From NCBI GenBank assembly GCA_021292105.1, contig CM037867.1:10296728-10360727 (forward strand): DNA of 64,000 bases, written 5' to 3'. This document shows, one piece after another, positions 16,601-64,000 of the stretch (positions are counted from its first letter, which is position 1; each line of letters begins with the position of its first letter). This stretch comes from Anadara kagoshimensis. Lineage: Eukaryota; Mollusca; Bivalvia; Arcoida; Arcidae. The notes beneath the pieces are model-generated. The model was not told the origin of the DNA. It made no database searches and was given only the letters and a program-made list of their open reading frames with translations. Both the position numbers and the translations under genes were made by a program.

Positions 16601-19600
16601 AATTTAAATCATTATTCATAAAATTATTACATAAAAGGACTTCATTCTGTGAATATGTTCTACTAAATTATTGACATTTTAATCGATTAAATAATGAAAT
16701 ATTTCTTGGTTATCAACTTACACAGAAATTAGGAATAAGGAAACACAACATTTCTCTCCTATCACAATGTATACTAACCCTAGTGTACTAGAATCAAATC
16801 CCCTATCCTGACTTGCTGAGCGTGGTCGTGATCGATGCACTCTCCCCTCTGCACTGTTCAGTGAGTTATTACTAGAAGACCCACTAAGTTCTCCTTGTAA
16901 CAACTTCTGTTTACTGGCATCTAATGTATTTAACAAGGCATCTGCTTGATCTTTAAAATGGTCGGCAAATCCCCAAAATGCTCTGGAATACAAAGAGTTA
17001 TGTTTGATTTGTGTGTGAATATTTGGTTATCTCCCCTTAGACATTGACATATTTTTATTACTAATACTGATAAAATGTCTGAAAATTGAGATTTTGCAAA
17101 TGGAACAGGCATTAAAACATGAATACTCACTTTAGTGTATTCAGGTTATTGAGATAACTCTACCTTCAGAAAATTTGGTTTTATAAACATAACACAAAAG
17201 AACGTTATCCATTTTGGATAAGAACAAGGTAAAACTCCAAACTTTTTATAAACAAAAGAACAAAAGGAGAACATATCAATTTTTCCAATTAAACAAAGTA
17301 AAAATTAGAAATTTTTACAAAAAATAATTTTTTTTTATATCAAGTGGACAAAAACATTAAGGTTCATTAAAAACTTGGTTAGAAGCTGTAAAATTTATGC
17401 CGTTGTACAAAATTGTGATGAAGCACAAGATGTCTTCATAGCAACATCACTTTGTATTATCTATTAAAGTACATATTTTGTCATCAAACGCTATTTTTAT
17501 CTTCCTAAAAAAAGTGTTACACATAGCCATCATACTGCCATATATGTCAGTGATGAATGGGCAGACTTGGTTGAGTGGTATTGTCACTGGTTTTCTAAAT
17601 CAAGGGCTGTGGGTTCGAACCTCATTCGGGATGATTTTCATCTCCTGCCCATACTAGAGCTGTAAAAAGCTTGTTACTTGGTAGTCTTTCAGATGAGACT
17701 AAAAGCTGAGGTTCAGAGTCTCAGTGCACGTTAAAGACACCACTGTAGAGTTAAAAAAAAGAGTATACCACCTGTGGCTGCTACAGAGGACGCTTACAAC
17801 TACAAGCCACTGAAACAGACTGAGCAAAGTAGAATGTATCAATAAAATCAGAAGATTTCTTTGTGAAAATTTGGGTTTTATACAAGATCTGTTCCTATGT
17901 TCCCTATTGTTACATTTATGTATCAGTCAAGACTTACTTTCTAGAGAAAACCCGAGCTTCAGCGTCGGCATCACTGATCCCACGTTTTATGGTTTCCTGT
18001 AGATTAGCGATATGTTTCTCTAAAATATATGTCGGCCATGTGTGTAGTAACTGATTAATAACCTCATAACAATATCTGAAAATAAATATTAAAATACAAC
18101 ATTAAGAAAATACTTTAAAAAATAGATAATCTTATCAAGCCACAAGGACAATTTTCTAAAAACTTTTGACAAAACTTCATATGGATACATTTTGACTTTT
18201 ATTCTTTTGATTCTCAGAAACTTCATTAATATGGATCGACAAGGCTAGCTGACATCACCTAATTTTCAGCATTATTTGGCATTCATTTGATTTTATTCAA
18301 TAAGCATGCTGACTTTTTCAGGTCAAGATTTGTTTTTCTTTGAAATAATATTTTTTGTTGAAATAAGAGAAACCTTCCAACTGAAAATTGTATATCTGTA
18401 TTTTTTAGAATTTTACAATTAAAATCTAGCTTGTGTTAATACAGATATCTAAAACCATTCATTCATACTGTCAAATTGCATTTAAAGAGTAAATATATTC
18501 CATTCAAATTCATTTCCAGGGCACACTATTTCCGACGCACACTTATTTCATGGCGAGATTAATTTTCAGCAAGTGACAACAATGTTATGTCTAGACTACA
18601 CTATACCGTACAATAACTATTAAACTTAAATTACTTAAAAAGAATTTAAATTACTGATGTGAAAGTTGATGACACTGGGTAAATCTAGTACAGGTTACTG
18701 ATGTAGCAGTATACAACAGTATAACTGTAATATACCTACCTTCTAATTATGCTAGATTTGGATGTAGTGTTCCCCGAGATAATTGGTATAAGACGAGGTG
18801 TGTGAGATAACTGTATTATACCTACCTTCTAATTATGCTAGATTTGGATGTAGTGTTCCCCGAGATAATTGGTATAAGACGAGGTGTGTGAGATAACTGT
18901 ATTATACCTACCTTCTAATTATGCTAGATTTGGATGTAGTGTTCCCCGAGATAATTGGTATAAGACGAGGTGTGTGAGATAACTGTAATATACCTACCTT
19001 CTAATTATGCTAGATTTGGATGTAGTGTTCCCCGAGATAATTGGTATAAGACGAGGTATGTGAGATAACTGTAATATACCTACCTTCTAATTATGCTAGA
19101 TTTGGATGTAGTGTTTCCCGAGATAATTGGTATAAGACGAGGTGTGTGAAATAACTGTAATATACATACCTTCTAATTATGCTAGATTTAGATGTAGTGT
19201 TTCCCCGAGATAATTGGTATAAGACGAGGTATGTGAGATAACTGTAATATACCTACCTTCTAATTATGCTAGATTTAGATGTAGTGTTTCCCGAGATAAT
19301 GGGTATAAGACGAGGTGTGTGAGATAACTGTAATATACATACCTTCTAATTATGCTAGATTTGGATGTAGTGTTCCCCGAGATAATTGGTATAAGACGAG
19401 AAGTGTGAGATAACTGTAATATACATACCCTCTAATTATGCTAGATTTGGATGTAGTGTTCCCCGAGATAATTGGTATAAGACGAGGTGTGTGAGATAAC
19501 TGTAATATACCTACCTTCTAATTATGCTAGATTTGGATGTAGTGTTCCCCGAGATAATTGGTATAAGACGAGGTGTGTGAGATAACTGTAATATACATAC

Positions 19601-22409
19601 CTTCTAATTATGCTAGATTTGGATGTAGTGTTTCCCGAGATAATTGGTATAAGACGAGGTGTGTGAGTATACTACAAATCAAAAATTTGGTCATATATTA
19701 TACATAGAATATTTAGGCAAAATCAGAAAATCCATAAAAATAACAAAATATATTTACACTAACTCAAAGAGAGGCCTCAGTGACAGAATGATCTGAGGTG
19801 ATGACTCATAACACAGTCTAGGCTTGAATCCAACTCTGGAGAGATCATAATGTCAAAAAGCTCACCAGTTTGTATGCCAAAGGATGGTGTTTTCTGTAGC
19901 ACTCTGGTTTCTTCTTGTATAAAATAAAACTGAATGCATTGATATAATCTGAATCTTGACTGGGGTGTAAAACACCAACCATTACTGCAATTCTATCAAT
20001 AACAGTGCACTAGACTTTTTTTTTATTATAACCTTAGTTATCTAAGAGTTCAATGTTTTCACTGGTTGGGAAAAAATGAGGACTTTGAATTGTACATAGT
20101 ATTTATTTACATTTAAAACGATACCCGCAATGTAGTTTTGCAACTACAGTTAAAATTTATCAATAAATCATAATGGAATTAAAAATACATATCTGTCAAT
20201 ATGGTATTTAGTACTTACTTGAATAAGAAACCTAATGCAGACAATACCAGATGTAGCCATAATTTTGACACTGTTTGGAATGAGATTAATTAAAGCTTGT
20301 AACATAGACTCTGCAAAATGGTCAAACTTGTGTCCTAATTGCTGAGAATAATATCTGAAATAGAAAAACAAAAAAAATACATGCTCCTATTGTTCACTGC
20401 AAATTTAAGCAGTAGTCTTTTGCAAATTAAAGCATACCAGAATTTTTATTGAAAAATAATTTTTTTCAAAATTTATTTTGAGAAAAAGCATAATTAGATG
20501 TCCTTTTTGGGGGGGTTATATCTCCCTTTCCCCTTTTAATAGGTCCCGGTTGCCAAAGGGTAAAAAGGAAGTGTTCACACATAACAGTGCTTCTTATCAC
20601 TCTAGGCTTGAATCCCACTTGCCACAGATCCTAGTGCTAGTGGCCAGTGGTTTTCTCTGGGTACTCCAGTTTCATGAATCATTGAAGCATTAAAAGCATT
20701 ACAGTGTCTAGAACAAAAAATAGAATAGGCAAAAATCAGTTAAAGGAAGAGTGCAACAAAAATATTCATTTTTGAGCAGACTAACGAATCAAACAGTCAG
20801 TATAGACTTCAGAAAAGCTTTTGACTTGTCAGTGACTTAATGAATCAAAGTCAGCACTATATATTTTTTTCAGACTTCGTAAAAGTCTTCGGCTTATTTT
20901 TGGAGACTTACGCTATTGTAATACATGCTTCTCTAACAATCTGAGATCTGAGATCCTTAACTGCTAACAATAAACATGGTTCTAAAGTACGTAAAATCTG
21001 GAAAAAATCATCGTGTTCTGCACCCCCAGATACCAACATTCCTCGTAACATTTTCATCTGAAATAAGTAAAATATAAATTGAAAGAAATACATTCAAACT
21101 AGCCAATTTTAACAGCAAATTTTAGCCATTTAGACATCTGCTATGGAATGAGGACTGCAACCCTCAAAATTGTAAAATTCAGTGTCCGAAAGCAGTAACA
21201 TTAGGAATTTCGAAACATTTTGAAAACAATTTTCAAAACTTTCAAAAACTTTCAGAAAACATAACAGTTTCATTAAATCTAGATGTCACCAGCTATAAGT
21301 TGAAGACATGTATAATTTTACAATGCTCTAACTGCAAATTTTAAAGACTCGTATCTTGGCAACAGTTTAAGGAGAGACAAGAACCAAATCTATCAACATT
21401 AAGATGTATGGAGCATTATAGACTTACATGGTCATTACGTTTCTCCCAATCATTGTTTGTGTCCATCAAATAATCTCTTACTTTAGTCATGTGATCTTGA
21501 AGATCTCGAGCGGAATATATCTAAAAATACAAATATAACCAAATGTAGAAGAAACATTAAATACACAAGTTTGCTAAAAACAAAGACCAAGATAGCTTTT
21601 AGCATAGTCCACCAGTAAGTGCACAACTAAATTGTGCACTTATGGATCGTGGTACCTCTCACCACCAATTTCAATTTTGCTTGGGACAGATCCTACTGCG
21701 AGAAAGTCTATCAGTTTGCTAGGGCATTTTCCTCCGGGTACTCCTGTTTCCTCTGCCATCGAAAAACCTGACCGGTCTGATATTAATAAAAAGAAGCTTG
21801 ACCTGGGTGTAAAACACCATTACTCAACTCCAACATAGCACCATGCAAAAAGAACCTGTGCATTTTACAAATGTCTCAAGTTCATAAAATATAATCATTT
21901 CAATGTAGCAAATAACAGTTTCAGGTTTGTTAATTTTTTTTCTAGTATATATCAAGGATCCCTTATACAGGTTTGACTTCACTGATGGTGAACTGAACTT
22001 ACCTGAACTTTAGGAACATCCTCAAATGATTTTATAAAGAAGTCTTCATCCACAGCACCAGAGGACGATGACACTGAAAACAAACAATGTATAAAACTGT
22101 TAAATCAAACATAATTATATACATGTCAGCATACACACATCTGTAGACAACCCATATTTTTGTTTCTGTCAGAAGTGATAATGGTAAAAACGATTAAACT
22201 TTGACTTCTTATCTGTTCAAATAGTTAGTTACTGAAAGTCCTAAATGACTGTCCCTCCAAATTCCCCTAAAATAGTTCAGTTTGTCAGTTTGCTTGCGAA
22301 AATTTGGTGTTTTTTTTTTCTTGGTTTCCTTAACTATTCCAGAGCTGATTGCCTCGATATAAGTTAAATAATCCTGACCAAGTAGAATATACCATAATTA
22401 ACTCTTAAA

Positions 22410-22449
<40 letters not shown>

Positions 22450-25400
22450 TTTGTTTGTTTTTCAATTTTGAACATGTGTACATCTAACTTAAAACATATG
22501 CATGTTCATTTGCAATTACATGTATGTATGCAATGTTTATGTGCACCAGACAAACTAGTTTAAACAAACAACCAAAGTTACGTTAATTTAACAGAGAGCT
22601 TACCTAATCATAAAATACGACAGAATAAAAAAATACAAAAAACTCGTAATGAAGAGGGTAAAAAAATACAGAAAAACATTATGTGGTGGTACCACGCCAG
22701 CATAGAGCTTCTTCAGGTACCTAGTCATTAAATATGATGGAATAAAAAACACCAGAAAATCGTAATGAAGAGGATAAAAAAAGTACAGCATGGAGCTTAC
22801 CTACTCTTAAAATATGATGGAATAAAAAACACCAGAAAGTCGTAATGAAGAGGGTAAAAAAGAAGATAGAGAGCTCGTTAGTAAATGAGTAGAATGTGCA
22901 GATGTCAGGTATAATATCATTATGTAATATCTGTATATATAGAGTATGGATACATACTATAATGTACCTAACTATAAATATCCAGATAATTACAGATTAC
23001 AACATCAATATTGTATGCCAACATCAATATAAACCATATCATTTCTAAATCTCTTTCTTTGGCTTTTTTTATTCCCCAAATTATGAATTCTGTGTGTTTC
23101 TTTCTTATTATTTGGTTAGCTGGTGAACTAAATGATACTTTCTTTCTTATGGTGTTTTTTATATATATATCCTGAATCAAAAATTCTGTGTATGTAGTGC
23201 AGTACCCTGGTGAACCAAATGAAAGCTGAACTAATCTCCTAAATATTTAGGTTTGTGGAATTAGCTGCTTTGTGTTTTGTATTGTTTCAGTAATATTTTT
23301 AACTCTAAGTAAATTTGGGTCATCAAATAAACATACATGTTTTTACCCATCTCTTAGTTAGGCAAAGGTAATAGAGCAACATCACCAATAAAGCCGGAGA
23401 TGTAAGGGTAAAAGGAAATGGCTGAATCCTTCTTGTTTAACATTTTGTCACAGTTATTATAAATCTACTCAGATACTTAGGCTTATAATTAGGACTGGGC
23501 CTATGGATGGGACACAAGTTTATCACAAGCTAAACAGGTACCCATTCATTTATAAGCTGAATGAGTTAGAGCAATTTGAAATGAAATGTCTTGCTCGGGG
23601 TTAAACCATAAAACCACCTGGCTGGGACTCAAACCCACAACTTTTGAACCATGTGTAAAGAGGCAGGCTTGAATTCTAACCCACAACTTTTGAACAATGA
23701 GTAAAGAGCCAGACTTGGACTCCAACCCACAACCTTTGAATCATAAGCATGAAGCCTGACTGGGGCTCAAACCCACAACCTTTGAAACATATGTAAAGAG
23801 CCAGACTTGAACTCCAACACATAACCTTTGAACCATGAGTATGTAGCCTGACTGGGGCTCAAACCAACAACATTTGAATCATGAGCATGGACCCTGGCTG
23901 GGGCTCAAACTTACAACCTTTGAACCATGAGCATGGAGCCTGGCTGGGATTCAAACCCACAGCCTTTGAATCATGAGCATGGAGCCTGGCTGGGATTCAA
24001 ACCCACAATCATTGAATCACAAGTATGCTGCATTGCATTTTTAACCTTAGTCACATATCTCCACTTTCATCTTCCTACACACAAAATAAAATACTTAACA
24101 TACAGACACCTGTACTTATGGTACATTTACATGCTAACAACTCATTTTCTCTAAGTGGGATAATTTCTTTTATATAAAAAACACCCTTCAGTGAGCAAGA
24201 AATGGTAAGTAATAGTTAACAATAATAAACATGACCAATCCTATATACCTAACTAGACTAGGATGAGGGTAATTTAATCTTAGTAAAAACCCTTAGGTAA
24301 GTGAATTAGTGTTTTATGCTCAGTCAAGATTTATATCTCTTCTATTGAGGTGATCAGTTCCATGATGACACCAGAGCCCCCCAAAACCAAAACCATCAGC
24401 CTTCAGTTTGAGAATTGACACACATTTTTACACTAGCTGAGTGCCATTCAGAACTGGAAAGTAAGATGCACTGTGATCCTAAATGTGTGCTTTAGACTAC
24501 TCAACCACCATTATTATTAGGTCCCTCCAAAATATCCCAACTAGGTGGAACTGAATTATACACTATGTAAAGACTATTTCACTTATATCAATCAGTTTTG
24601 GTATCCACTTGTATCTGGAATTGTATACACTAGTCCAAATTAGTTCAAACTCTCAAACAACTGAACTTGTGGTAAGATTGATCCTAGAGATCATTATTTT
24701 ATGACTACCGTACATAAAAAATGCTGATGCAACTCAAAACAACATCTAGTCAACCTAGCATTCAACCCTTCTCGATATCTATTAGGGGTCAAACAACCAG
24801 GTGAAAGTTGTCAACACTATAACAATCCTACACCTTACTGATCTATATACTGTAGTAAAATTTATGTAGTTGTGAAATATTTCATCTTGATGAGGTAAGC
24901 TAAAAAATATCACCTGAAGCAATAACACAAGATAATAAAAATAAATTTAAAAAACACAAAGAAAGGTACTTCTGAATTCCTTAAATGTGTGTTTAATGTG
25001 GTTAAAAAGTCCATAAACCCTCTGATATAAGTAACCATTAACTCATGACTGACAGAAAATTTATTCATACGTGTATAAATACACAACATTCCATCATCAA
25101 AAATGTGAATGAAGAGAATGTAGCTGGCTGGCTGGCTAGCTCACCACTTTGTATAGTCTTGACTTAACAGGTTTTTTAGGGAACAAACTACAAGCAAACC
25201 TGTCTATTAAGGTCATCCAAAGGAAAACAATAAAAGTGACAATAATGAACAAGTGGTCCTTATATGCAGGTTAAAATAACTTCAATGAAGAGAAATTGGA
25301 ATTTTTTTTACTGGCCTTAATAAGCAGGTAGCCCTTATATAGAGGGTGGCCTTTAAGGCAGGTTTGACAATTTTTGATAAGTTTTTAGTTCAGGCACATT

Positions 25401-39000: not shown

Positions 39001-42000
39001 ACTATCGTCATGGCCTGATCTATGTGTTAGCTGATCCACAACTGACAACTCTGATAGTGGATCAACAGAATAGGATTAATACAGATAATACTCATGCTTG
39101 TTTTACTGTGTAACAAAGTATGAAATTAATTACTCTAAAATAAGAAGATAATTTCTTCTTGGCTCGTTGGTTTGAATGATTGAAGAAAAAGAGTGGAACT
39201 TTGATATTTTATGGACTAGTCTAGAGTATTTCACTTATATTGAGGTGATAAGTTCTGGGATGGTGAAGGAAGCCGAGGTGATAAGTTCTGGGATGGTGAA
39301 GGAAGCCGAGGTGATAAGTTCTGGGATGGTGAAGGAAGCCGAGGTGATAAGTTCTGGGATGGTGAAGGAAGCCGAGGTGATAAGTTCTGGGATGGTGAAG
39401 GAAGCCGAGGTGATAAGTTCTGGGATGGTGAAGGAAGCTGAGGTGATAAGTTCTGGGATGGTGAAGGAAGCCGAGGTGATAAGTTCTGGGATGGTGAAGG
39501 AAGCCGAGGTGATAAGTTCTGGGATGGTGAAGGAAGCCGAGGTGATAAGTTCTGGGATGGTGAAGGAAGCTGAGGTGATAAGTTCTGGGATGGTGAAGGA
39601 AGCCGAGGTGATAAGTTCTGGGATGGTGAAGGAAGCCGAGGTGATAAGTTCTGGGATGGTGAAGGAAGCCGAGGTGATAAGTTCTGGGATGGTGAAGGAA
39701 GCTGAGGTGATAAGTTCTGGATGGTGAAGGAAGCCGAGGTGATAAGTTCTGGGATGGTGAAGGAAGCCGAGGTGATAAGTTCTGGGATGGTGAAGGAAGC
39801 TGAGGTGATAAGTTCTGGGATGGTGAAGGAAGCCGAGGTGATAAGTTCTGGGATGGTGAAGGAAGCCGAGGTGATAAGTTCTGGGATGGTGAAGGAAGCC
39901 GAGGTGATAAGTTCTGGGATGGTGAAGGAAGCCGAGGTGATAAGTTCTGGGATGGTGAAGGAAGCCGAGGTGATAAGTTCTGGGATGGTGAAGGAAGCCG
40001 AGGTGATAAGTTCTGGGATGGTGAAGGAAGCCGAGGTGATAAGTTCTGGATGGTGAAGGAAGCCGAGGTGATAAGTTCTGGGATGGTGAAGGAAGCCGAG
40101 GTGATAAGTTCTGGGATGGTGGAGGAAGCCGAGGTGATAAGTTCTGGGATGGTGAAGGAAGCCGAGGTGATAAGTTCTGGGATGGTGAAGGAAGCCGAGG
40201 TGATAAGTTCTGGGATGGTGAAGGAAGCCGAGGTGATAAGTTCTGGGATGGTGAAGGAAGCCGAGGTGATAAGTTCTGGGATGGTGAAGGAAGCCGAGGT
40301 GATAAGTTCTGGGATGGTGAAGGAAGCCGAGGTGATAAGTTCTGGGATGGTGAAGGAAGCTGAGGTGATAAGTTCTGGGATGGTGAAGGAAGCTGAGGTG
40401 ATAAGTTCTGGGATGGTGAAGGAAGCTGAGGTGATAAGTTCTGGGATGGTGAAGGAAGCCGAGGTGATAAGTTCTGGGATGGTGAAGGAAGCCGAGGTGA
40501 TAAGTTCTGGGATGGTGAAGGAAGCCGAGGTGATAAGTTCTGGGATGGTGAAGGAAGCCGAGGTGATAAGTTCTGGGATGGTGAAGGAAGCTGAGGTGAT
40601 AAGTTCTGGGATGGTGAAGGAAGCCGAGGTGATAAGTTCTGGGATGGTGAAGGAAGCCGAGGTGATAAGTTCTGGGATGGTGAAGGAAGCCGAGGTGATA
40701 AGTTCTGGGATGGTGAAGGAAGCCGAGGTGATAAGTTCTGGGATGGTGAAGGAAGCCGAGGTGATAAGTTCTGGGATGGTGAAGGAAGCCGAGGTGATAA
40801 GTTCTGGGATGGTGAAGGAAGCTGAGGTGATAAGTTCTGGGATGGTGAAGGAAGCCGAGGTGATAAGTTCTGGGATGGTGAAGGAAGCCGAGGTGATAAG
40901 TTCTGGGATGGTGAAGGAAGCCGAGGTGATAAGTTCTGGGATGGTGAAGGAAGCCGAGGTGATAAGTTCTGGGATGGTGAAGGAAGCCGAGGTGATAAGT
41001 TCTGGGATGGTGAAGGAAGCCGAGGTGATAAGTTCTGGGATGGTGAAGGAAGCCGAGGTGATAAGTTCTGGGATGGTGAAGGAAGCCGAGGTGATAAGTT
41101 CTGGGATGGTGAAGGAAGCCGAGGTGATAAGTTCTGGGATGGTGGAGGAAGCCGAGGTGATAAGTTCTGGGATGGTGAAGGAAGCCGAGGTGATAAGTTC
41201 TGGGATGGTGAAGGAAGCCGAGGTGATAAGTTCTGGGATGGTGAAGGAAGCCGAGGTGATAAGTTCTGGGATGGTGAAGGAAGCCGAGGTGATAAGTTCT
41301 GGGATGGTGAAGGAAGCCGAGGTGATAAGTTCTGGGATGGTGAAGGAAGCCGAGGTGATAAGTTCTGGGATGGTGAAGGAAGCTGAGGTGATAAGTTCTG
41401 GGATGGTGAAGGAAGCTGAGGTGATAAGTTCTGGGATGGTGAAGGAAGCTGAGGTGATAAGTTCTGGGATGGTGAAGGAAGCCGAGGTGATAAGTTCTGG
41501 GATGGTGAAGGAAGCCGAGGTGATAAGTTCTGGGATGGTGAAGGAAGCCGAGGTGATAAGTTCTGGGATGGTGAAGGAAGCCGAGGTGATAAGTTCTGGG
41601 ATGGTGAAGGAAGCTGAGGTGATAAGTTCTGGGATGGTGAAGGAAGCCGAGGTGATAAGTTCTGGGATGGTGAAGGAAGCCGAGGTGATAAGTTCTGGGA
41701 TGGTGAAGGAAGCCGAGGTGATAAGTTCTGGGATGGTGAAGGAAGCCGAGGTGATAAGTTCTGGGATGGTGAAGGAAGCCGAGGTGATAAGTTCTGGGAT
41801 GGTGAAGGAAGCCGAGGTGATAAGTTCTGGGATGGTGAAGGAAGCCGAGGTGATAAGTTCTGGGATGGTGAAGGAAGCCGAGGTGATAAGTTCTGGGATG
41901 GTGAAGGAAGCCGAGGTGATAAGTTCTGGGATGGTGGAGGAAGCTGAGGTGATAAGTTCTGGGATGGTGAAGGAAGCCGAGGTGATAAGTTCTGGGATGG

Positions 42001-45000
42001 TGAAGGAAGCCGAGGTGGTAAGTTCTGGGATGGTGAAGGAAGCCGAGGTGATAAGTTCTGGGATGGTGAAGGAAGCCGAGGTGATAAGTTCTGGGATGGT
42101 GAAGGAACTGCAGTGCCTGGAGAAAACTGCTAACCTTGAGCAAAGCAAAACAGCAAACTTTCCCACATTCTTTGTGGAATATAAATCTAGCGAGTGGCAG
42201 TTGGATCTGCAGACTACATGCCCAACAAGGCCCTCAAGGCTCTCTAGTTGGATAAAAATACTCAAAATCATTTATCATACAAAATGTTTTGGTCAAATTA
42301 AGGATACCTAAAAGTAAGACCTAACTGGTTAGGGTCCAGTGCTTGTCAAAAGATTACAAGTTTGATAATTAAGTGGCTTTAATATGTGTGTATCATGTAT
42401 AATTTTCTTATTTCATCTATTTGTTATGATAGTCATGTTCTTGGTCACTATGAGTATTGCTATGTACATGGTCTTTTTTCAACAAATAGGTTTATTGATA
42501 CAAAAGTAGACCAAAATCACTTGCACAAATTCACGCAGCATGACACAAACATGTGTTAAGATTAATCCTTGATTTCATATTAATGAACATGAAAATCTCT
42601 TTACAAAATGAAAATTTCCTGTGTCATACATTATACAACTGTGAAGATGAAGGAAAAAAATTGGCTTTTCACATTTTACTGACTTGTGCGTGAAAATTAA
42701 AGCAAGCTAGAATTTAATCTCAGTCTATACAAAAATGTATTAAGTGTGAATAAAATGCTTAATATGTATATAAGAGTCAAAAAAAAGGGTGAAGTTTATG
42801 TCATTGTACCTATCGGTATGTATAATCTTCTGTACTGTATAACAATTAGCTACTAAAATACCGCCTATATATATACATTACAGACCCCTCCAAAGTTTAA
42901 CACTCGGATAACGAAAAGGAGTCGAAGCTTGGCTGCTGAGTGGCTCAAATATGGATAGCTAGTCATCGAGAAAGTAGAAATACAGCTGTCTGAATGCTGC
43001 GGTGACATAGGTAAGGGGGGGGGGGGGGGGGGGCTGGATTGACCTGCTGATTCAGCACTAATTTGTCAGTTTAGTGTTTAACTTTTGACAATGCTGTACT
43101 GTAGGTATAGGGTGATGAATTCCTCCTTGTAATAAAAAATATTGAAGCTAAATTACCATATAATAATAAACTTATAAATTATATATACAGGTACATGTAA
43201 AATTATTTAAAAGTAAAACATAGATGATATGTATTCTTGAATGATTGATAAAAAAATAGAAATGCCATCAGAAAATATTTGTGTTTTTGAATTATTAACC
43301 CATTTTAAGAGTAGAATTATTTAACACACTTTTGACGTATGCAGGTGAAGAAAGAAGATAATCCATTTTAGGGTAAAAAATATTTAAGAATGCATTTGAA
43401 ATATTTTGCAGATAACAATTTAAATGTTTTTCTGAATATAAAATAACAACAACAACGTCTTAATTGTTGTCACTGGTGTTGTCATCAACACTTGTACAAA
43501 GGCTTTGGTTGAAAGTTCTTTTTTCAGATCTGTTTTGGTTCAAAAGAACAAGTGGTCTTGTATCTTGTACCAGTACAACAGAAATTGCTGTAGCAGATGA
43601 ATCTACTAGTGCTACAGGAATTGTTGTAGTAGATGGGATGACCAAGTCGATAACTTAATGACAATACTTTTCAAGGCGACCGAGACTTGAAAACTGTCAA
43701 TATGATAACATCTTGTTTAAATTAATATTGCAGGTTGAATCTCTCAATCCACACATACTTATCTATATAAAAGTAAAAAATATGAAAGCAACCCTTTCAG
43801 TATATTTAAAGTAGAAGACAAATTTCTTTAAGAAAGCAACATGTATGGAATAATATGTATCGCAAAATGTATTCACAAAGTAAACTGAGTGGAAGTAGGC
43901 AACAAACTTATTCCAAACAGACACTTTTGTCTGCTTGCTGGCTTTATTGAAACCAATGTAGAGTTTTCCATAGATAGGGGTACAAGTAATTTAGTGTTAA
44001 GAGATTTCCATATAAAAGTAGTAGTTTTAACAGCTTACTACTGTAGAGTTATACAGGGGTACGGGGAGATTTCCATATAAAAGTAGTAGAATGTTAGAGT
44101 TTTAACAGCTTACTACTGTAGAGTTATACAGGGGTACGGGGAGATTTCCATATAAAAGTAGTAGAAAGTTTAGAGTTTTAACAGCTTACTACTGTAATAC
44201 TGATTAAGTAGTGTTCAGTCATAAAACAGTCACTTTAGAACTACATAATGGCCGTCATAATAGATATTTTATTACTTTTTGACACATCTTTCCTGCCATA
44301 AGCCAGGTCACAGTAATGTCCTAGTATTTTAACAGTTCACACTTTGTATACCATAATAAGATACAAATCTTTATCTGAATGACTATAGGAATATAGACTA
44401 TGACTGAACAAGTACAAACATTGTTATAGAGGCAGAAATGGTTTGGAGGTCAAAATGCATACCAGACAAAACCAATACTGAAAGTCTTATGTTCAAACTT
44501 ATTTCAACATGATTTCTGGTCTGTACAGCAAATTATAATTTGTCTTCCCTTTTGCTTACACTGAACTTGTTTCCAACTTGTTGTTGTGGTCATTTCATCA
44601 GACTTAAAAAGAAGCATTTAGTCAATGAAAAGTAATGAGTTCAGAATCATTTTGTGTTATTCAGACAATTACTCTATCATTACTTTTATTAAGTAAATCT
44701 CTATACACAAGCCAATGTGGTTTGCCCTGTACTCGTGCTTGCTGATGGAGTGAAATGGAGCAATGGTGTTTTATACCCAATTCAAGATTCTTTCACTTAT
44801 ATCTAGGTGGCCAGTTTGAGGATGGTGGAAGAAGCTAGAATACCAAGAGGTAACCACCAGCCTTCAACAAGTGAACTGACAAACTTTGTTTGAACAAGGC
44901 AGCTAAAGTGGGATTTAAAGCAAGGAATTGAGTGGTGCTGTGATTCTTAAGAGTATTCTTTAGATTGCTTGGCCACTAAGGGCCCTGGCAACCAGTACAG

Positions 45001-63300: not shown

Positions 63301-64000
63301 TCAACCCTTCTGGGTTTTGTGAGATGCCATTTAGACATTTTATTTGACATTGTTCTAGTTTACAAAGATGATAAACGATACCAGTCGAAATGTTTGGATC
63401 AACTCAAGGCTATAACCGAGGACAATTCGTGGGACCAAGGTCAGACCAGTAATATTTTGTAAATTTTCTGATAGCAAACAACAAAATTTTAGATATGGAT
63501 CAGCCTAATTTGGGTTGATACCGGTGGATCATGGCCTGACACCGAATGAACAAGGACAATGGGCTGACACCAGGTATCATAGGCTGCCACCTGGACACTA
63601 AACAAGCACAGGTCTGATAACTCTATACTGTATGGTGAACATAACAACAAGCATACTTCAAACCATTAACAGTCAGTTTTTAACTGCAAACTTTTTCACA
63701 TATACAATCTTATCTAAGCACATTATGGGTATATCCACTGAGAATAATTACTTTTTCATGTAAATATTAGAAATAAAAGGTTTAGGATTAGATAGTAACA
63801 GAGTGACCTGACCATATTCACTGAAGCATGAAAGGCATTAGGTGGTTCTAAAAGAATGGCTGTTTGGCTGGCTACTGGGCTGGCAATAATAAAACTTTTA
63901 TTTAATAGTGTATTAACTTTAATCCCTAACAGGACAATTTTTGGCAAATTTACACATTCTCTTTTTTTGGCACAGATTCTCAGGTCTGTTTTATTACTGG
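63301..64000. other. No supported feature
   Basis: AT-rich DNA. GGTCAGACC, GGGCTGACACC and similar short motifs recur at 63440-63610 (a degenerate local repeat), but no exon or RNA gene is seen. Confidence 0.4.

Follow-up and report, generated by a model that had tools for sequence, protein, structure and literature searches.

Eleven tandem copies of a conserved CLASP TOG2 exon in Anadara kagoshimensis, of which probably only the first is in use

We analyzed a stretch of 64,000 nucleotides from Anadara kagoshimensis, referred to here as the window (C11:10296728-10360727, C11 being contig CM037867.1; the assembly has 1.115 Gb in 36 contigs). It carries, on its minus strand, part of a gene for the microtubule regulator CLASP, in which exon 8 of the TOG2 domain is present in eleven tandem copies between intact exons 7 and 9. 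Copy 1 is probably the working exon, and copies 2-11 would form an intronic minisatellite repeat that offers donors without good acceptors. We infer both the splice choice and the lack of function of the extra copies from the sequence.

Tandem Repeats Finder reports a repeat with a period of 86, 11.0 copies and 96% matches at window positions 18721-19667, and the read-out of the copies places the first and last exon bases of the array at 18740 and 19671. The eleven-fold amplification of a CLASP TOG2 exon and its coordinates, 18740..19671, are thus as the initial annotation had them. That annotation described eleven 86-bp units with a 71-nt exon, which holds for ten of the copies read out on the minus strand; copy 6 has 72 nt (+1), and its extra base makes one spacing 87 bp instead of 86 bp. 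The copies are separated by 15-nt spacers that correspond to the first 15 nt of intron 8, and the last copy is followed by GTAGGTATATTACAGTTATACTG, with which intron 8 starts. The exon copies differ by 3.3% on average in pairwise comparison, which supports the earlier view that they are nearly identical and do not form a Dscam-type array. The annotated phase of exon 8 (0 to 2) was also borne out, and skipping the exon leads to a stop when the frames are enumerated. Copies 2-11 start with TTATCT (TTATTT in copy 7), compared with TATACT in copy 1, and would encode LS (LF in copy 7) where copy 1 encodes YT and human CLASP1 has HT. As adjacent homologous exon copies within one gene, the array is a tandem exon duplication. 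Its near-identical tandem units, which differ in number between this locus (A, 11 copies) and a second one (B, 5 copies), also make it a minisatellite or variable number tandem repeat. The features of the region, all on the minus strand, are as follows.

21428..21520, minus strand: exon 5 (93 nt), open, with splice sites, donor GTAAGT
20912..21057, minus strand: TOG2 exon 6 (146 nt), supported by protein match, donor GTAAGT
20219..20354, minus strand: TOG2 exon 7 (136 nt), ends in phase 0, donor GTAAGT, 136/136 identical at locus B
19672..19711, minus strand: original 3' splice region of exon 8 (ATGAC, T-rich tract, TTTGTAG), only before copy 1
19601..19671, minus strand: exon 8 copy 1 (71 nt, YTHTPRLIPIISGNTTSKSSIIR), presumed working exon, donor GTATGT, 71/71 at locus B
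19515..19585, minus strand: exon 8 copy 2 (71 nt), LS for YT, acceptor-like ATTACAG, donor GTAGGT
19429..19499, minus strand: exon 8 copy 3 (71 nt), ends in GG instead of AG, donor GTATGT
19343..19413, minus strand: exon 8 copy 4 (71 nt), P to S
19257..19327, minus strand: exon 8 copy 5 (71 nt), only synonymous differences in the shared part
19170..19241, minus strand: exon 8 copy 6 (72 nt), +1 nt frameshift, T to I
19084..19154, minus strand: exon 8 copy 7 (71 nt), S to F
18998..19068, minus strand: exon 8 copy 8 (71 nt), T to I
18912..18982, minus strand: exon 8 copy 9 (71 nt)
18826..18896, minus strand: exon 8 copy 10 (71 nt), acceptor-like AATACAG
18740..18810, minus strand: exon 8 copy 11 (71 nt), acceptor-like AATACAG; its donor runs into the original intron 8
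18721..18739, minus strand: start of the original intron 8 (GTAGGTATATTACAGTTAT), first 15 nt match the spacer
17938..18075, minus strand: TOG2 exon 9 (138 nt), entered in phase 2

The identity of the gene is clear from its protein. Exons 5, 6, 7, 9 and 10 all have open frames; splice sites are normal at the first four, as is the acceptor of exon 10. The protein joined from exons 6-10 matches human CLASP1 TOG2 (4k92; E 2.6e-70, 199/200 aa) and CLASP2 (3woy; E 3.8e-66), each across almost all of the query, shows a weak match to STU1 (6cok; E 7.5e-5) and contains the Pfam family CLASP_N (E 7e-29). The flanking exons and copy 1 match CLASP TOG2 along their length.

The copies differ from each other mainly in what precedes them. 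We compared 16 acceptors by the number of pyrimidines among the 17 bases at positions -20 to -4 and by the length of the upstream AG-free zone. The acceptors of exons 5, 6, 7, 8 (copy 1), 9 and 10 have 11, 13, 15, 10, 12 and 12 pyrimidines and AG-free zones of 51, 39, 27, 85, 35 and 46 nt, respectively. Those of copies 2-11 have 4-6 pyrimidines, and the nearest upstream AG is 9-14 nt away; their ranges do not overlap with those of the six protein-supported acceptors (rank tests, P about 5e-4). The region before copy 1 has a T-rich tract and is free of AG for 85 nt; at a distance of 20 nt it contains ATGAC as a candidate branch point. In copies 2-11, a weak branch-point-like ATAAT lies 23 nt before the acceptor; in copies 6 and 7 it is outscored by CTAAA at -34, and in six of the ten copies (3, 6 and 8-11, which are the copies preceded by GTAGGT) a further AG is found more than 9 nt past the -23 candidate and before the acceptor. 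The splice-site and branch-point matrices used here are generic and were not trained on this species. By such a score, the acceptors of copies 2-11 fall at percentiles 27-51 among all AGs on this strand of the window. For donors, the eleven copies all lie at percentiles 98.5-99.6, similar to 95.8-99.2 for exons 6, 7 and 9. The donors of the copies read GTAGGT in seven copies and GTATGT in four, and not GT(A/T)GGT as given before. The acceptor ATTACAG, previously assigned to every unit, stands before copies 2-9; it is replaced by AATACAG at copies 10 and 11 and by the native TTTGTAG at copy 1. The donors were therefore amplified with each unit, as claimed, and the native acceptor region was not, being present before copy 1 only. 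What precedes copies 2-11 as an acceptor is an AG that happens to occur near the beginning of intron 8, and not the exon's own.

These signals suggest how the gene could be spliced. The array would be an exon-bearing minisatellite within the present intron 8 of CLASP. Since the unit has its 5' boundary at the acceptor AG, each new copy would have gained a full donor, and neither a branch point nor a polypyrimidine tract. In copies 2-11 this AG would simply close the 15-nt spacer directly after the preceding exon copy. The spliceosome would then recognize copy 1 only and pair its acceptor with a nearby donor, donor 1 giving the productive mRNA, and copies 2-11 would be removed together with intron 8. 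Most simply, donor 1 may be chosen as the donor nearest the only good acceptor. Adjacent copies would not be joinable, because the spacer is 15 nt and a branch point for copy n+1 would fall within copy n, before its donor. The initial interpretation is supported as to the amplification, the apparently intact TOG2 exons and an expansion that the spliceosome must ignore. It erred in giving every unit complete splice sites.

Enumeration of the reading frames is consistent with the use of a single copy. Among the 66 contiguous exons that run from acceptor i to donor j in array A, only ten are in frame without a stop, and these are the single copies except copy 6. None of the 55 multi-copy read-through exons is open and in frame, and composite exons that read through the spacers were rejected. 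The same holds for the ten exons from acceptor 1 to donors 2-11 (0/10). When copies are spliced serially, 15 of the 2047 subsets are open, namely the ten single copies and five pairs that include copy 6. The possibility that the 15-nt spacers act as mini-introns was also rejected; removal of all spacers yields no open frame. At locus B, 2 of 15 contiguous exons (B1 and B3) and 6 of 31 subsets are open.

Locus B lies 2.65 Mb from the array in the window, on the opposite strand. The array unit was compared with the whole genome, only the best candidates being scored, and had 16 matches, 11 in the window and 5 at C11:7649446-7650339. For the TOG2 protein, 26 candidates were scored and 22 of them matched, 14 in the window and 8 at locus B; no further TOG2 locus was found among these candidates in the assembly, a diverged third one not being strictly excluded. 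Both TOG2 loci found carry the exon array, with 11 copies at A and 5 recognizable copies at B. B1 is intact and identical to copy 1 of A (71/71). B2 has 69 nt and the donor GTAGAT; B3 has 71 nt and an L to P change in PRLIP that keeps the frame; B4 has 70 nt and an R to H change; B5 has 72 nt, with the same +1 as A6. B2 and B3 are separated by 484 nt (C11:7649597-7650080) containing a fold-back element with long inverted arms, as judged by eye.

The two loci are inverted and collinear over ~130 kb, from window position 63621 (B 7604072) to about C11:10228126 (B 7733819). Window positions 1-63621 lie within this inverted collinear region, their counterpart being C11:7604072-7669029. Identity in blocks of at least 500 bases is 72-98% (in most cases 89-96%), and insertions separate the blocks. 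One of the inter-locus comparisons covered matches of at least 100 bases; two others covered one strand and matches of at least 500 or at least 300 bases, the latter also leaving out 63 matches within a 33-bp array. Collinearity continues into a common satellite (about 174 bp) as far as 10218721 and 7745105; in the 22 and 25 kb that follow, no inverted match of 500 bases was found. This 174-bp satellite marks the limit of detectable homology between A and B. Tandem arrays of 145 bp and 174 bp are present in the flank (L029 2368-3633 and L029 1-775). Loci A and B are either a segmental duplication or two haplotypes placed apart, and B represents a diverged second form of the array either way.

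Comparison of the loci reveals strong constraint on the coding exons. Between A and B, exons 5-9 (copy 1 included) show 7 differences in 584 nt, all of them synonymous; against a neutral expectation of 0.759 nonsynonymous, the absence of nonsynonymous changes has P 4.8e-5. Six further differences in the first 170 nt of exon 10 are also all synonymous. Mismatches in four intron stretches amount to 2.5, 3.1, 5.8 and 8.4%. The initial annotation had considered that this locus might be a pseudogene beside another intact CLASP. Over exons 5-9 and the first 170 nt of exon 10, the open frames, the splice sites and the purifying selection are those of an intact gene, and all 22 TOG2 matches are located at the two loci, both of which carry the array. 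The extra copies behave differently from copy 1. Pairs of extra copies from A and B differ by 4.08 events on average (range 2-7, 40 pairs), compared with 0 for copy 1. Four of the 14 extra copies at the two loci are frame-broken, and several others are missense, so the selection for frame expected of mutually exclusive exons is not seen. In array A, 8 of 67 exon sites vary, as do 2 of 19 sites in the spacer and the next 4 nt (Fisher P 1.0). Four of the eight exon changes alter the protein (position 70 was assigned by hand), without departure from neutrality (P 0.15). All four combinations of variants are present among the copies for site 39 and spacer +4 (1, 5, 3, 2) and for sites 51 and 39 (5, 6, 1, 2), which suggests exchange between copies within array A.

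Locus B also provides clues to the origin of the array. It has the 9-bp sequence CAGTATACT both at 7649439, in the acceptor region, and at 7650336, in the tail of intron 8; once the extra units are removed, the pair is 86 bp apart, which is the unit length. The counterparts at locus A read TAGTATACT in one copy and CAGTTATACT in the other. These are taken as later changes, a direction that we infer. The array probably started by slippage between these 9-bp direct repeats. In the ancestral gene, they would have stood 86 bp apart, at the acceptor of exon 8 and at intron +13, and slippage or unequal exchange between them would have duplicated the 71-nt exon together with 15 nt. The resulting tandem array would subsequently have shifted in copy number. 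The replacement of TATACT by TTATCT would be a later change, not produced by slippage itself. The TTATCT junction and the +1 variant are common to both loci, suggesting that the array is older than the separation of A and B, barring inter-locus exchange or a double origin of the +1. The earlier suggestion of a recent expansion therefore needs care.

Several observations weigh against copy 1 being the sole working exon. The acceptor of copy 1 is itself not strong by the generic score, reaching percentile 65.5, compared with 94.9-99.8 for exons 6, 7 and 9, and its contrast with copies 2-11 consequently rests on the tract and the AG-free zone. Nine of donors 2-11 score at least as high as donor 1 (6.32 or 4.99 against 4.99; copy 3 has 3.71), so donor strength explains no preference for donor 1. 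The identity of A1 and B1 taken by itself is weak, with P 0.17 or 0.014 depending on whether the divergence of intron 5 or intron 8 is used. Ten of the 14 extra copies keep the frame (A2-A5, A7-A11 and B3), that is, nine of the ten in A and also B3. In addition, A and B might be alleles separated by the assembly.

The quality of the downstream donors is the starting point for an unlikely alternative, a splicing-based control of CLASP dose. Acceptor 1 could pair with any of the eleven donors, all of which are within the top 1.5% of GTs on this strand by the generic matrix. Donor 1 alone would give a coding mRNA, and leaky donor choice would yield non-open products, as for all ten exons from acceptor 1 to donors 2-11; donor choice, and also copy number, would then set the productive fraction via nonsense-mediated decay. 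Both TOG2 loci found have the array, in 11 and 5 copies. At locus B, however, the 484-nt stretch between B2 and B3 and the donor GTAGAT at B2 show no sign of a preserved design, and the variation in array A looks neutral. In its most explicit form, which we also doubt, the array would be a donor-decoy rheostat: eleven near-equivalent donors behind one good acceptor would tie CLASP output to copy number, non-first choices being degraded. If true, the dose of a microtubule regulator would be encoded in the length of an array, an arrangement retained at both TOG2 loci found.

We regard as quite unlikely that the copies are alternative versions of exon 8, made mutually exclusive by frame and by steric hindrance across the 15-nt spacer. 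Used alone, each copy other than copy 6 is in frame, just 15 of the 2047 subsets are open, and the weak ATAAT precedes the acceptors of copies 2-11; in Hatje et al. (PMC5740500), a donor to branch-point distance below 50 bp counts as potential steric interference. Mutually exclusive exons need a usable acceptor and donor each, and, judged by sequence, copies 2-11 have the donors but not the acceptors: they have no polypyrimidine tract, and competing AGs lie 9-14 nt upstream (for the idea of AG exclusion, see PMC1431707). Moreover, all copies encode nearly the same peptide, leaving little to choose between, and frame breaks and missense changes occur among the extra copies at both loci. It is very unlikely that a single exon was falsely multiplied in assembly. 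Tandem repeats are prone to such errors and a single genome was available, but the copies differ by 3.3% on average in a mosaic pattern rather than as identical loops, and locus B has a diverged array with a different interruption. RNA-structure-guided choice, with docking and selector sequences as in Dscam, is hardly credible and was rejected. A duplex of intron 7 with the spacer reaches -14.6, compared with a shuffle mean of -11.1 (4 of 100 shuffles were as good), and one with the tail of intron 8 was matched by 9 of 100. With the whole unit, 55 and 32 of 100 shuffles were as good, so that the four tests together are weak and the duplex energies of introns 7 and 8 unconvincing. The spacers are also nearly identical (2/19 variable sites) and could hardly pick out one copy, and no inverted repeats of at least 40 nt are present in window 18400-20200. 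The preferred interpretation is still that copy 1 is used and copies 2-11 are intronic.

Tandem exon duplication, minisatellites that alter genes and the splicing-out of tandem units are already known (PMC9013439, PMC2812944, PMC4974935). In tandem exon duplications, one coding exon is likewise repeated inside a gene and unannotated intronic copies occur (PMC9013439, PMC6071210); in the case of OBSCN, there are introns between the copies (PMC9013439, PMC6071210). In contrast, the eleven near-identical CLASP copies come in units of 86 bp, with spacers of 15 nt, and the unit does not include the native 3' splice region. Gene-internal minisatellites (De Grassi and Ciccarelli 2009, PMC2812944) likewise alter exon-intron structure and vary in copy number. 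The repeats in that study, from recent primate paralogues, have on average 30-bp units and 4 copies; units in coding sequence are 9-228 bp, some lie at exon-intron boundaries, and most coding cases lengthen low-complexity or repeat parts of proteins. The CLASP unit instead comprises an entire conserved exon from a folded domain, and the repeat adds no length to the protein if the best reading is right. In potato RdRp and fission yeast SPOG_01682 (PMC4974935), duplicated units also carry splice sites and the extra ones are spliced out; in SPOG_01682, the intron spans four 24-bp duplicates. CLASP, unlike these genes, gains no new intron: the units, each containing a whole exon, were added at the front of an existing one. 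Exons that are exclusive by steric hindrance or a distant branch point (PMC1431707, PMC5740500) resemble the array in that donor and branch point are too near and the frame bars double inclusion, but CLASP copies 2-11 have neither the long AG-free zone nor the tract that characterize exons with a distant branch point. The spacer is exactly 15 nt and runs from GT to AG, like the 15-nt introns of Stentor coeruleus (PMC9505925), but the CLASP gene is of animal type with introns of hundreds of bases, and spacer removal gives no open frame. Among the papers listed in searches of an open-access collection, judged by title and the start of the abstract, none reported a CLASP exon array and only related kinds were seen, and none of 25 pattern matches in bacterial or archaeal contigs was confirmed as a relative of the array. 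In the variant described here, a whole conserved exon and 15 nt, but not the 3' splice region, form the unit of a minisatellite that occurs at both TOG2 loci found.

The array amounts to a natural splicing experiment, in which both TOG2 loci found force a choice among near-identical exon copies. Copy 1 is set apart from the others mainly by its upstream 3' splice region. With exon sequence and donor nearly constant, exon definition can be tested directly. The array also bears on how a gene with strongly constrained exons tolerates an unstable internal repeat.

The window contains other repeats as well. A 33-bp minisatellite at window 39242-42107 has 87 copies with 98% matches and a strong skew of G over C, and some of its frames lack stops over as many as 1016 codons. 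The window has 67 exact 33-mers and the searched 40 kb of locus B has 23, and the copy number seems to be different. A 46-bp tandem array at window 23617-24016 has 8.7 copies with the core CAAACCCACAACC, which we take to resemble a tRNA box B on the other strand. In intron 9, a tRNA-like sequence at window 17559-17625 is possibly the head of a short interspersed element; by eye, it has a box-A-like motif and, in GGGTTCGAACC, what is presumably a box-B-like motif.

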